A DNA stretch of 30,222 bases, from IMG/VR virus record IMGVR_UViG_3300046535_000186, positions 1-30,222 of that record. One strand, 5' to 3'. Source of the stretch: a virus. The position numbers and the translations under genes were made by a program. The notes under the pieces were generated by a model. It saw only the letters and a program-made list of their open reading frames with translations, did not search any database and was not told the DNA's origin. Shown in pieces: positions 2,243 to 26,647 of this stretch (position 1 is its first letter; the number at the start of each line of letters is the position of its first letter).

Positions 2243-2595
2243 AGACCTTCCCCATCTACCCGGCCAGCTTCGCCGCCATGCTGGTCGACCGTGCTGGCCA
2301 GAAGTACCAGCCCAGCAACGGCACCGAAGGCGAGTGCTTCCATTCCGCCTGGTGCTGCGAGTGCGCGCGCGACCTGGCCATGAGCGAGGGCATGCCGATC
2401 GAGGAATGCGACGATAACCAGAAGTGCGACATTCTGGGCCGGTCCTTCCTGGGCATCGACCACCCGCAATTCCCGACCGAATGGCAGTACGGGAAGGACG
2501 GACAGCCCTGCTGCACCGCCTTCGTGCCGGCTGGCCAGCCGATCCCGGTGCCAGACCTGCACACCCGCGACCTGTTCGAAGGTGGCCAGGCATGA
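2239..2595 (+). CDS. Conserved Cys-rich phage protein of unknown function
   Basis: The 118-aa product resembles a recurrent phage family with the pattern YxPSNGTEGxxF, followed by WCxxCxRDxAM, ECDDNxxCxI and a C-terminal WQYGxDGQPCCTAFVPAG. No function is known to me. The six to eight cysteines (WCCECARD, CDDNQKCDI, QPCCTAF) suggest a small metal-binding, possibly zinc-binding, fold. The gene is locked between rusA and a DNA methyltransferase by ATGA overlaps on both sides, so it is co-translated with DNA-metabolism proteins. It is probably cytoplasmic, since it has no signal peptide or membrane segment. The family resemblance is from memory of the motif and needs a profile search. Confidence 0.75.
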   Translation: MKTFPIYPASFAAMLVDRAGQKYQPSNGTEGECFHSAWCCECARDLAMSEGMPIEECDDNQKCDILGRSFLGIDHPQFPTEWQYGKDGQPCCTAFVPAGQPIPVPDLHTRDLFEGGQA

Positions 2596-3563
2596 GCATC
2601 CGCACCGTTACGATCGGGCCCGCCACCCTGTACTGCGGCGACGCCCTGGAAATCATCCCGACCCTGCCGAAGGTCGACGCCGTCATCACCGACCCGCCCT
2701 ACGGCGTGCTGGATGAAGAATGGGATTCCATGACCTTCCGCGAGCTGGCGCGCTTCACCATGGGCTGGGTCTCGCAGGTGCGCGCGAAGTCGGACGTGCT
2801 GGTGTCGTTCTTCGCCGTCGACACCCGGGCCGCCCTGGACCCGCTGCTGCAGATGGTCTATGAGGACGTGCGCCAGCTGGTCTGGAACAAGGGCGGCGGC
2901 CGCGTCGCCGATGGCGGCCTGTTCTACTCGTTCGAACCGATCTACCTGTGCCAGCCGCCGACGAAGTGGGAAGTGGTCGAGCCGAAGACGCTGGCAGTCG
3001 CCCAGCTGATCGCCAGCGCCCGCGAGCGCGCCGGGCTGTCGCGTGGCGCCGTCGACATGCAGGTGCGCGGGAAGAAAACCGGCCTGTGTTACCGCTGGGA
3101 AGAGGCGGCATGCCTGCCCACGCTCGAGCAGGCGCACAAGCTGCGCCAGATCCTACCGCTGGGCGTCGACTTCGACCAGACCTACACCGCGGCGCTGCTG
3201 GCACGCGACCAGGTGATGGCCAGCGCCCGCGCCAAGACGTCGGAGAACGCTGCGCGCGGCCTGGACGTGTTCACCTACCCGCCAACGCAGGGCGGACCTG
3301 ACCGGCACCCCACCGAGAAGCCGCTGGCGCTGATGGGCGACCTGGTGCAGGTGGTCACCGACCCGGGCCAGGTGGTTCTGGATCCGTTCATGGGCCGCGG
3401 CACCACCGGCGTCGCATGCGTGCAGCTGGGCCGCCCGTTCATCGGCATTGAGCGCGACCCGGGCCACTTCGATAACGCCTGCAGGCGCATCGAACAGGCG
3501 GTGGCGCAGGGCCAGCTGTTCACGCCCGAGCAATCGAAACAAGTACAGGAATCGCTGTTATGA
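2592..3563 (+). CDS. DNA N6-adenine/N4-cytosine methyltransferase with inserted HTH-like module
   Basis: This 323-aa amino-methyltransferase acts on adenine N6 or cytosine N4. The catalytic motif DPPYG is at D34-Y37 and the SAM-binding motif DPFMGRGTTG at about 264-273. Catalytic-before-SAM order is the beta-type arrangement. Between them, about residues 133-195, is a separate-looking segment (AQLIASARERAGLSRGAV, then VRGKKTGLCYRWEEAACLPT) that reads like an XRE-type helix-turn-helix and probably forms part of target recognition. The downstream HPTEKP motif is typical of the family. ATG at 2592 overlaps the previous stop (ATGA), and the stop overlaps the next start. It is the second DNA methyltransferase in the operon. 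A role in evading host restriction, or in regulation, is an inference. Confidence 0.92.
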   Translation: MSIRTVTIGPATLYCGDALEIIPTLPKVDAVITDPPYGVLDEEWDSMTFRELARFTMGWVSQVRAKSDVLVSFFAVDTRAALDPLLQMVYEDVRQLVWNKGGGRVADGGLFYSFEPIYLCQPPTKWEVVEPKTLAVAQLIASARERAGLSRGAVDMQVRGKKTGLCYRWEEAACLPTLEQAHKLRQILPLGVDFDQTYTAALLARDQVMASARAKTSENAARGLDVFTYPPTQGGPDRHPTEKPLALMGDLVQVVTDPGQVVLDPFMGRGTTGVACVQLGRPFIGIERDPGHFDNACRRIEQAVAQGQLFTPEQSKQVQESLL

Positions 3564-4005: not shown

Positions 4006-4836
4006 ATGAGCATTACTTTGATGACACTGGCATGGAAGTCTGATTTTCAATCGGGCCGGAAGATGGTGCTGCTGGCGCTGTGCGACAACGCGAGCGACGA
4101 AGGCGTGTGCTACCCGGGCATCCCGACGCTGGCCAGGAAATGCAGCATGGGCGAGCGCACCATTCAGGGCCACATCGCCGACCTTGAAAAGCTGGGCATT
4201 GTGCGCCGTGAATTCCGGACTGGCCGCAGCACGCTGTACCAGATCGACGGCAGCAAAATCTGCCCCCCGCAGATTCTGCACCACCCCCCCGCAGAATTCG
4301 CACCACCCCCCCCGCAGGATCTGCACCACCCCCCCGCAGATCTCGCACCCATAACCATCACTGAATCATCAGATGAACCACCAGATAACCCAACCCCTGG
4401 GAAAACGGCGAAAAAGCATCATGGAACTGATGACGACTTCAAGGCTGCCCGCTGGATGTTCGACCTGGTGCGCAAGGTGAACCCGACGGCCCGGGCTGCG
4501 AACTTCGACGTGTGGGCAAACGAAATCCGCTTGATGCGCGAGATCGACGGCCGCACGCATGCCGAAGTGTGCGAGCTGTTCCTGTGGGCTAAAAAGGATT
4601 CGTTCTGGTGCGCGAATATCCAGTCGCCGGCCAAGCTGCGCGAGAAGTGGAACACGCTGGCCGAGCGCATGCAGCGCAGCCAGCCGGCACCGCGGCCTGG
4701 TGCTGGCCAGCCTTCCGCCGCCGGCAAGTCGGTCGCCGAACAGAACGCGGCCAACAGCGCCGAGGCGAAGCGCCTGCTGTTCGGCACCCCGGCCCCAGCC
4801 GATGAAGTCGATGATGGAGTACTTGAAAATGCGTGA
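4006..4836 (+). CDS. Lambda O-like replication initiator with winged-helix N-terminus
   Basis: This 276-aa protein starts with a helix-turn-helix/winged-helix domain (about residues 15-80: KMVLLALCDNASDEGVCYPG, TLARKCSMGERTIQGHIADL, then LEKLGIVRREF), as in phage O-type initiators that bind iterons at the origin. A Pro/His-rich linker (about 85-120) is encoded by four GC-rich DNA repeats. The C-terminal domain, about 145-235, is predicted helical and contains DVWANEIRLMREIDGRTHAE and LREKWNTLAERMQ. The start at 4006 has a purine-rich site (GGGGA) upstream. As in lambda, origin-like repeats lie within the gene and a P-like gene follows with a short overlap. The linker carries C-runs of 6, 7, 8 and 7 bases, so the frame is vulnerable to slippage or sequencing error. 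The initiator role is inferred from domain and layout. Confidence 0.8.
   Translation: MSITLMTLAWKSDFQSGRKMVLLALCDNASDEGVCYPGIPTLARKCSMGERTIQGHIADLEKLGIVRREFRTGRSTLYQIDGSKICPPQILHHPPAEFAPPPPQDLHHPPADLAPITITESSDEPPDNPTPGKTAKKHHGTDDDFKAARWMFDLVRKVNPTARAANFDVWANEIRLMREIDGRTHAEVCELFLWAKKDSFWCANIQSPAKLREKWNTLAERMQRSQPAPRPGAGQPSAAGKSVAEQNAANSAEAKRLLFGTPAPADEVDDGVLENA
4263..4350 (+). repeat. Four iterons, candidate phage replication origin
   Basis: Four copies of a 15-base core begin at 4269 (GCAGATTCTGCACCA), 4291 (GCAGAATTCGCACCA), 4314 (GCAGGATCTGCACCA) and 4336 (GCAGATCTCGCACCC). Each is preceded by a run of 6, 7, 8 or 7 cytosines. Core-to-core spacing is 22, 23 and 22 bases, so copies 1 and 3 are read in one frame and copies 2 and 4 in another, while the DNA stays conserved. 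Copies contain dyad symmetry (GCAGA-T-TCTGC in copy 1, AGATCT in copy 4). The arrangement inside an O-like gene parallels the lambda origin with its four iterons. Origin activity is an inference. Confidence 0.72.
4351..4430 (+). other. Lower-GC segment next to the iterons, candidate unwinding element
   Basis: Directly right of the four iterons the sequence drops to about 45% GC (36 of 80 bases by hand count) inside a very GC-rich gene, with A-rich stretches such as GGGAAAACGGCGAAAAAG. In lambda the AT-rich segment that melts first also lies to the right of the iterons. The segment stays coding (TITESSDEPPDNPTPGKTAK), a disordered linker compatible with relaxed protein constraint. Confidence 0.5.
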
Positions 4837-5644
4837 GAACGACTTTGACGAATTTTCCCAGCTGCTGGACGCCGCCTTCGACATTCTCGGCAAGACGCCC
4901 GCGGCCAAGGTGGTCAGCTCGACCGCCAAGGCGCTGTTCTTCCAGGCGCTGGCCGAGTATCCCCTGCCGCTGGTGCGCGCGGCGATAGGTGCGCACGTCA
5001 AGCGCGGCAAGTTCACGCCCACGCCCGGCGATATCGTGGATCACATCGAGGCCAGCACCAACGGCGACGGCCGCCCCGGGCCGGAAGAGGCCTGGGCGAT
5101 CGCACTGGCCAGCCAGGACGAGCGCGACACGGTGGTATGGACGTCGGAGACCGCGCAGGCCTGGACGGTGGCGCGCCCGGTGATGGAGACCAGTGGCCCG
5201 ATCAGCGCCCGCAAGACCTTCACCGAGACTTACACGCGCCTGATCGCCGCTTCGCGTGCCCAGCGCCGCCCGGTGGTCTGGTCGGCCCACCTGGGCTGGG
5301 ACAAGGCGATGCAGGCGCAGGTGCTGCTGCGCGCCACCGAGCAGGGCCTGCTGCCGGCGCCCAGCGTGGCCGGCCTGCTGCCACCGCCAGAAGTGCCAGA
5401 ACTGGCACTTTCCCCCGATGCGCGCGCCCAGCTGGCCAAGGTGAAGCAGATGCTGGCCGACAGCGCCGCCGAACGGGAAAGCCGGCTGCAGGCCAAGGTG
5501 GACGCCCGCAACGAGACCGAGGCCGAGTTCAAGCGCAACCTGAACCAGCGTGTGGTCGAGTACCAGCGGTTCGCCAAGCTGGCCGACCAGGTGCAGGTGA
5601 CCCGGGCCGAGGGCGAACGCGCCGAGAAGGCGGGCCAGCCATGA
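4829..5644 (+). CDS. Replication-associated protein, putative lambda P-like/helicase loader partner
   Basis: The 271-aa product follows the O-like gene with an 8-base overlap, the position of lambda P or a helicase-loader gene. The N-terminal part (FSQLLDAAFDILGKTPAAK, ALFFQALAEYPLPLVRAAIG, then FTPTPGDIVDHIE) matches a pattern common in phage replication proteins, in which a helical domain is followed by a P-x-P-x-D-I motif. Residues about 190-265 form a long charged helix or coiled coil (ERESRLQAKVDARNETEAEF). The start at 4829 is preferred because GGAG lies 9 bases upstream. Other in-frame ATGs at 4802, 4811 and 4814 lie further inside the previous gene. No Walker motif is visible, so it is not an ATPase of the DnaC type. 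The role comes from context and motif and is moderately secure. Confidence 0.65.
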   Translation: MRENDFDEFSQLLDAAFDILGKTPAAKVVSSTAKALFFQALAEYPLPLVRAAIGAHVKRGKFTPTPGDIVDHIEASTNGDGRPGPEEAWAIALASQDERDTVVWTSETAQAWTVARPVMETSGPISARKTFTETYTRLIAASRAQRRPVVWSAHLGWDKAMQAQVLLRATEQGLLPAPSVAGLLPPPEVPELALSPDARAQLAKVKQMLADSAAERESRLQAKVDARNETEAEFKRNLNQRVVEYQRFAKLADQVQVTRAEGERAEKAGQP

Positions 5645-26110: not shown

Positions 26111-26647
26111 TTATTCCAGAATCTGCCAGTCTTCGGCCAGCGCATCCGACTGCGACGGCGCCCAGCCCATCAGAATCGCGCCCTGTGCCGTCTTCAGGAT
26201 GAAATAGGGCAGGACCGTCGCCCCGCCGCCGTTCGCTTCCGCGTGCGCGCGGGCGTGCTCGTTCCAGAATTGCGACGCCGCCAGGTATTCGTTCCCCTTG
26301 CCCAGCGCGACCCACTGGCCGGCACCGTTCCAGCCGACGCGCGCCACCTTCGCGCCGCCCTTCATCGCTTCGACCGCCAGGCCGAAGTTCATGGCGTCGC
26401 ACGGCCGATAGGCCTTGTCGAACGCTTCCTTGGGCGTCCAGGTGACATAGCCTTCGTGGGTCGGCAGGTTCGGCTTGCCGCCGTCCAGGTATTCGACCAG
26501 GTAGCCGGGTTCCTCGGCCTGTTCATCAGCCGGCAGGGTCCAGCCGCGGAAAGCATTGTAGGCGCCGCGCGTCATCGGTTCGGCGCGGATTAACTTGGTA
26601 CCGATGAATCTGGCGACGGTCTGGGTCGGGATGGTGGTTGCTTGCAT
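26111..26647 (-). CDS. Tad2-like (DUF2829) domain protein, candidate anti-Thoeris factor
   Basis: This 178-aa protein has two parts. Residues about 11-80 (VARFIGTKLIRAEPMTRGAY, NAFRGWTLPADE, LVEYLDGGKPN, GYVTWTPKEAF) form a domain often found in phage early proteins. Residues about 86-178 match DUF2829, now called the Thoeris anti-defence 2 domain: MNFGLAVEAMKGGAKVARVG-WNG, LPYFILKTAQGAILMGWAPS, then QSDALAEDW. Tad2 proteins are known to sequester the cyclic ADP-ribose-type signal made by Thoeris ThsB, stopping NADase activation. An AAGGAAG site precedes the ATG. The gene lies in the leftward early cluster, where anti-defence genes often sit. Binding residues are not verified here. Confidence 0.8.
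   Translation of the reverse strand: MQATTIPTQTVARFIGTKLIRAEPMTRGAYNAFRGWTLPADEQAEEPGYLVEYLDGGKPNLPTHEGYVTWTPKEAFDKAYRPCDAMNFGLAVEAMKGGAKVARVGWNGAGQWVALGKGNEYLAASQFWNEHARAHAEANGGGATVLPYFILKTAQGAILMGWAPSQSDALAEDWQILE

Follow-up and report, generated by a model that had tools for sequence, protein, structure and literature searches.

The window analyzed here (the whole 30,222-bp IMG/VR record IMGVR_UViG_3300046535_000186) very probably contains a replication origin whose initiator sites are four iterons lying inside an O-like replication initiator gene. Origin function is well supported by the architecture of the locus, and this reading draws on the repeats, their uniqueness in the record, their independence of reading frame, their conservation, the domain architecture of the initiator, and the precedent of phage lambda.

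The record is classed as linear and has a G+C content of 66%, and it is probably a fragment of a larger phage genome, because its close relatives are 36 kb long. In a protein search, the top-scoring prophage relatives of the initiator came from Herbaspirillum, Massilia, Collimonas, and Noviherbaspirillum; since these relatives and the G+C content agree, an Oxalobacteraceae host is suggested, and the best explanation is a tailed phage akin to prophages of Oxalobacteraceae-type Burkholderiales. Upstream of the initiator are two DNA methyltransferase genes, one of the C5-cytosine type and one of the N6/N4 type (148 to 1329 and 2592 to 3563, plus strand), and a gene at 26111 to 26647 on the minus strand encodes a Tad2-like protein (PF11195; E = 6.6e-22), a member of the Thoeris anti-defence 2 family. 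Relatives were gathered by protein search, by a DNA-only iteron pattern that allowed start-to-start spacings of 19 to 27 only, and from annotated phages, and iterons were counted in a nonredundant set of 51 initiator genes. With the DNA-only pattern, 59 of 119 loci fell inside winged-helix initiator ORFs; by eye, many low-complexity coding repeats were among the rest.

Two overlapping genes frame the locus:

4006 to 4836, plus strand: O-like replication initiator gene, 276 aa, with HTH_36 and phrog_391 matches and a C-terminal likeness to lambda O

4829 to 5644, plus strand: helicase loader-like gene, 271 aa, overlapping the initiator stop, with weak profile and fold matches

The only Pfam match of the initiator is an N-terminal winged helix (PF13730, HTH_36; E = 6.6e-11), and its PHROG matches are phage initiator families, with phrog_391, "replication initiation O-like," at E = 2.9e-62. 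Together with the AlphaFold model, in which pLDDT is about 86 for residues 1 to 80 and 44 to 56 for residues 91 to 140, these matches bear out the winged-helix, O-like initiator proposed in the preliminary description. The protein consists of a winged helix (residues 1 to 86), a linker (about 90 to 137), and a helical C-terminal domain (140 to 224). The linker, modeled with low confidence, is the part encoding the iterons and the adjoining low-stability segment, and it is plausibly the region where the initiator tolerates frame changes. Among solved structures, a search by sequence returned no relative at an E value below 0.06, and a search by fold returned generic winged-helix regulators only. 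The 4829-to-5644 gene is kept as the neighbor of the initiator in relatives. Its product matches phrog_6028 (function unknown) and, weakly, phrog_2289, helicase loader (E = 0.0096); a weak profile match to PDB 1no1, "replisome organizer" (E = 0.0034), and a weak top fold match to lambda P in the DnaB complex 9oa1 (E = 0.034) also point to a product with a weak resemblance to helicase loaders.

The sequence GCAGNNNNYGCACC is present four times, with starts at 4269, 4291, 4314, and 4336, and a degenerate fifth copy lies at the 5' end of the array:

4253 to 4266, plus strand: degenerate 5'-most iteron, identified by sequence, core GCAAAATCTGC, with the tail CCC rather than ACC

4267 to 4282, plus strand: iteron 1, CCGCAGATTCTGCACC, codon phase 2

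4289 to 4304, plus strand: iteron 2, CCGCAGAATTCGCACC, codon phase 0

4312 to 4327, plus strand: iteron 3, CCGCAGGATCTGCACC, codon phase 2

4334 to 4349, plus strand: iteron 4, CCGCAGATCTCGCACC, codon phase 0

The 11-bp cores at these four starts are GCAGATTCTGC, GCAGAATTCGC, GCAGGATCTGC, and GCAGATCTCGC, respectively, each followed by ACC. Their positions, and their spacings of 22, 23, and 22, were found in the sequence as previously described, and relative to the ATG at 4006 they occupy two codon phases in the order 2, 0, 2, 0. The encoded peptides, PPQILHH, PPAEFAP, PPQDLHH, and PPADLAP, agree with the earlier assignment of PPQ-x-LHH to copies 1 and 3 and PPA-x-x-AP to copies 2 and 4. The pattern CCGCAGNNNNYGCACC has exactly four exact matches across the 30-kb record, all of them in the array, compared with a mean of 0.03, and never four, in shuffled sequence; the four-copy array is not expected by chance. 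The degenerate copy at 4253 is 16 bp upstream of copy 1, which fits the 16- to 17-bp spacing of the 5' copies in relatives, and the copy at this 5'-most position is a full-pattern iteron in two of them (L007 and L010). Across 224 iterons from initiator genes of the set, dyad matches lie above the column expectation (0.50 against 0.35; 0.48 against 0.32), but in the window the dyads of copies 2 and 4 are weak, with 3/5 and 2/5 matches.

To the right of the iterons lie a low-stability segment and, within it, a second array:

4350 to 4435, unstranded: low-stability segment, candidate DNA-unwinding element, 53% A+T versus 34% in the record

4353 to 4383, plus strand: second array, AACCATCA (4353), AATCATCA (4364), and AACCACCA (4376), corresponding to AACCRTCA arrays in relatives

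The lower-GC segment noted earlier on this side of the array is thus present, and its best 80-bp window (4351 to 4430) has a z score of 3.4; it is low in stability but not unique, because it ranks only seventh among the nonoverlapping least-stable stretches of the record. A switch in cumulative GC skew, put forward earlier as a check, was rejected as origin evidence: the window peaks near 4155, but three relatives about 36 kb long do not repeat this and show no switch at the array. The second array was absent from the preliminary description. Its copies, 11 and 12 bp apart, start directly to the right of the iterons, and a degenerate fourth copy, AACCCAAC, lies at 4387.

The second array recurs in relatives far beyond what their peptides predict. 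In the iteron-bearing genes of relatives, AACCRTCA has 2.74 copies in 72 bp, against 0.06 for control windows, and 118 copies were observed where the peptide predicts 30. The spacing between copies is 10 to 12 bp in 66 of 79 cases, the first copy begins 2 to 3 nt past the last iteron in 33 of the 39 genes having the array, and more than one codon phase is used in 36 of 43 genes. The candidate unwinding element carries short direct repeats at regular spacings of 10 to 12 bp, as at origins of the RctB/ori2 type. Two relatives (L020 and L021) have the AACCRTCA array behind a different iteron core, GCCAATTTGGC. A DNA-only search requiring three exact copies gave 88 nonredundant loci with enough upstream sequence; a winged-helix domain was found in 61 of 83 ORFs of at least 90 aa, and some of the remaining matches were simple repeats in unrelated ORFs or truncated ORFs. 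The repeats fall in at least two phases in 64 of the 80 long ORFs at these loci and encode EPS, NRQ/NHQ, or xTI/xTV. The window-type iteron is upstream in at most 22 of the 88 loci, the others having different repeats, such as AAAGGGTG or ACGGGGTG, and the array is also found in phages with different initiator C termini and different hosts. Because the second-array loci carry many different upstream iterons, the iteron appears to change between phages while the AACCRTCA array persists. Klebsiella phage 1 LV-2017, Escherichia phage Kati, and Salmonella phage ST64B, whose initiators have other iterons, also carry related repeats on the right side, ATCCRTCA and GAACCAGTCA; this hints at variants of the second array among enterobacterial phages.

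These features can be assembled into a predicted initiation pathway. The winged-helix domain of the initiator would bind the four iterons cooperatively; given the imperfect dyad symmetry of the 11-bp core, each iteron would probably take up one dimer. The bound initiator would build an O-some-like complex. In lambda, the O-some forms and the A+T-rich segment beside it opens (PMC5043065, PMC7466680), and by analogy the strain of the complex may open the low-stability segment at 4350 to 4435. The AACC(A/G)TCA repeats, at one per helical turn, may then keep the bubble open by serving as an ordered site of binding, most likely for the initiator on one exposed strand. The C-terminal domain would recruit the putative helicase loader encoded at 4829 to 5644 and thereby host DnaB. 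Binding, unwinding, helicase loading, and, most of all, the partner of the second array are parts of the pathway that we infer from sequence. At the Vibrio cholerae origin ori2, ATCA repeats are engaged in single-stranded form by RctB (PMC11711613), and the RK2 plasmid origin, which is bound by TrfA, has GGTT repeats in its unwinding element (PMC10316083); in both, as in the present locus with its candidate element, iterons adjoin an unwinding element in which short repeats recur at regular intervals. AACCRTCA contains ATCA (when R is A) and the complement of GGTT, although these shared letters may be coincidence. By this analogy, single-strand capture by the initiator is the most likely role of the second array, an assignment that we make tentatively.

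A reading that retains the origin is a serious competitor for the second array, if a somewhat less probable one: the array may bind a nucleoid protein or another host factor in double-stranded form, or may only tune bending and melting. Its period is near one helical turn, and since phages with unrelated iterons and different initiator C termini share it, many hosts may possess the same partner. However, an array that spans phages of different hosts and usually keeps a fixed register of 2 to 3 nt to the last iteron fits the initiator, and melting alone would need A+T content, not a defined 8-mer.

It is far less likely that the iterons are an operator through which the winged-helix protein represses its own gene, replication beginning elsewhere. 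Winged-helix proteins are often repressors, which lends this reading some plausibility, and a reporter that contained the ori region was expressed less when lambda O levels were higher (PMC3985674). However, the intragenic position of the iterons and the adjoining low-stability segment with its own phased array suit an origin, as do the C-terminal domain, with its likeness to lambda O, and the neighboring loader-like gene, and a search around the initiator gene and the proposed origin found no sigma-70 promoter or terminator. Autoregulation may coexist with the origin role.

The origin interpretation is strengthened by evidence that selection acts on the iteron DNA and not on the peptide, as the preliminary description had claimed from the window. 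In the 51 initiator genes, 224 iterons lie in linker regions, versus 4 in the other 25 kb of the same genes, and eight relatives have one iteron array per record. The 224 iterons are distributed over codon phases 0, 1, and 2 as 114, 37, and 73, respectively, under a single DNA consensus, ACCCCCGCAGNANNTGCACCCC, and at least two phases are used in 43 of 47 genes. Adjacent spacings are mostly 16 to 17 or 21 to 23; decay of a copy leaves a longer gap that equals a sum of such values. Of 176 spacings, 153 are not multiples of three. Since the search pattern allowed spacings of 19 to 27, the selection does not explain the clustering at 21 to 23 inside this range, and it did not favor the 16-to-17 class. 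When the peptides of the relatives were recoded with natural codon usage, 22.3 iterons were expected versus the 224 observed (a loss of about 90%), with only 2% surviving in phase 0 and 21% in phase 2, and for the window peptide only 2 recodings in 200,000 kept all four iterons. Alanine codons within iterons are GCA in 253 of 287 cases, versus 16% elsewhere. A frame change is seen directly between L007 and L010: relative to L007, L010 has a one-base deletion before iteron 3 and a one-base insertion after it, which change PQPLHP to RNICTP while the 14-bp iteron match is preserved. Taken together, the phases, the nontriplet spacings, the loss on recoding, and this frame change strongly support selection on the DNA. 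The expectation that relatives would keep the core rather than the peptide held for the 224 iterons with their one consensus but failed for the last copy. There, L007, L008, and L010 have lost the GCAG core (GCTGTGCTCGCACC, GCTGACGTCGCACC) and retained a PPAxxAP peptide; this one position keeps the peptide better than the DNA.

The converse explanation, that selection for a proline-rich linker peptide produced the repeats incidentally, was rejected by recoding and is extremely improbable: the linker is indeed proline-rich in this phage group, PPAxxAP outlasts the decayed last core, and some DNA similarity within phase 2 is expected because PPQxLHP is written with preferred codons, but rare GCA codons dominate, one consensus encodes three unrelated peptides (PAxxAP, PPQxLHP, and RxxCTP) at spacings that avoid multiples of three, and initiators with other iterons have linkers that are not proline-rich. 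Variation within the arrays was also observed. In L006 (4241 to 4290), copy 1 is degenerate and rewritten to GTGCGAGATCTGCACC while copies 2 to 4 are kept, which suggests that the 5'-most copies tolerate decay. The initiator ORF of L108 (361 aa) has an in-frame linker insert just after the winged helix that, by eye, is GIY-YIG-type endonuclease-like, and window-type iteron-like sequence resumes beyond it; a selfish insertion into the origin region is possible.

Comparison with known systems separates what is shared from what is particular to this group. The preliminary description had called the locus a lambda-type origin with a new iteron sequence. The layout is that of lambda ori, where the initiator gene likewise houses its iterons in the stretch that separates the DNA-binding domain from the C-terminal one. 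Both arrays comprise four iterons with an imperfect dyad, though a weak one in window copies 2 and 4, and in both a segment of low stability follows on the 3' side and a loader-like gene comes next. The C-terminal domain of the initiator is also 47% identical to that of lambda O over 112 columns (BLASTP). In contrast, the N-terminal DNA-binding domains did not align by BLASTP, the iteron sequences differ, and lambda has no AACCRTCA array beside its iterons. "Lambda-type" applies to the layout and the C-terminal domain but, by BLASTP, not to the DNA-binding domain. The iterons of lambda also stand in different codon phases (spacings of 20, 24, and 23), and because they change frame as well, frame hopping is not new; phage-specific iterons inside O-like genes are likewise already known. 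Phages P22 and L carry distinct iterons within their O-like genes, gene 18 (PMC8022706), an arrangement shared with the window, although those of phage L are six imprecise copies of TGTCCAACGGA. The window iteron is new only relative to lambda, since it occurs in Pseudomonas aeruginosa phage phi2 (NC_030931, "replication initiation O-like") and dozens of other phages, and it is widespread in Pseudomonas and Burkholderiales phages. Phage phi2 has seven iterons of the window pattern in several codon phases, followed by AACCGTAA/AACCGTCA repeats; it differs in having extra 5' iterons at 17-bp spacing that are absent or degenerate in the window, and the annotated features around its initiator gene mark no origin. 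Among open-license papers, we found no prior description of the window iterons, of the two-class spacing rule, or, most notably, of the shared second array, and searches for the second-array sequence strings found nothing relevant.

A two-part origin is one possible generalization, which we offer with some reserve. Fast-changing iterons would set specificity, and AACC(A/G)TCA would be a slowly changing, shared strand-opening code at a fixed register, read by all winged-helix phage initiators or by a common host factor, with both overprinted in all frames on the linker, the part of the initiator most free to change. The frame independence of the iterons is a clean internal argument for DNA selection within a coding sequence. 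The analysis locates the likely origin at base precision for a large group of temperate Pseudomonas and Burkholderiales phages; for those with annotated initiator genes, the features examined marked no origin. The shared AACCRTCA repeats make the choice and holding of a strand by lambda-type initiators testable in easily cloned systems.
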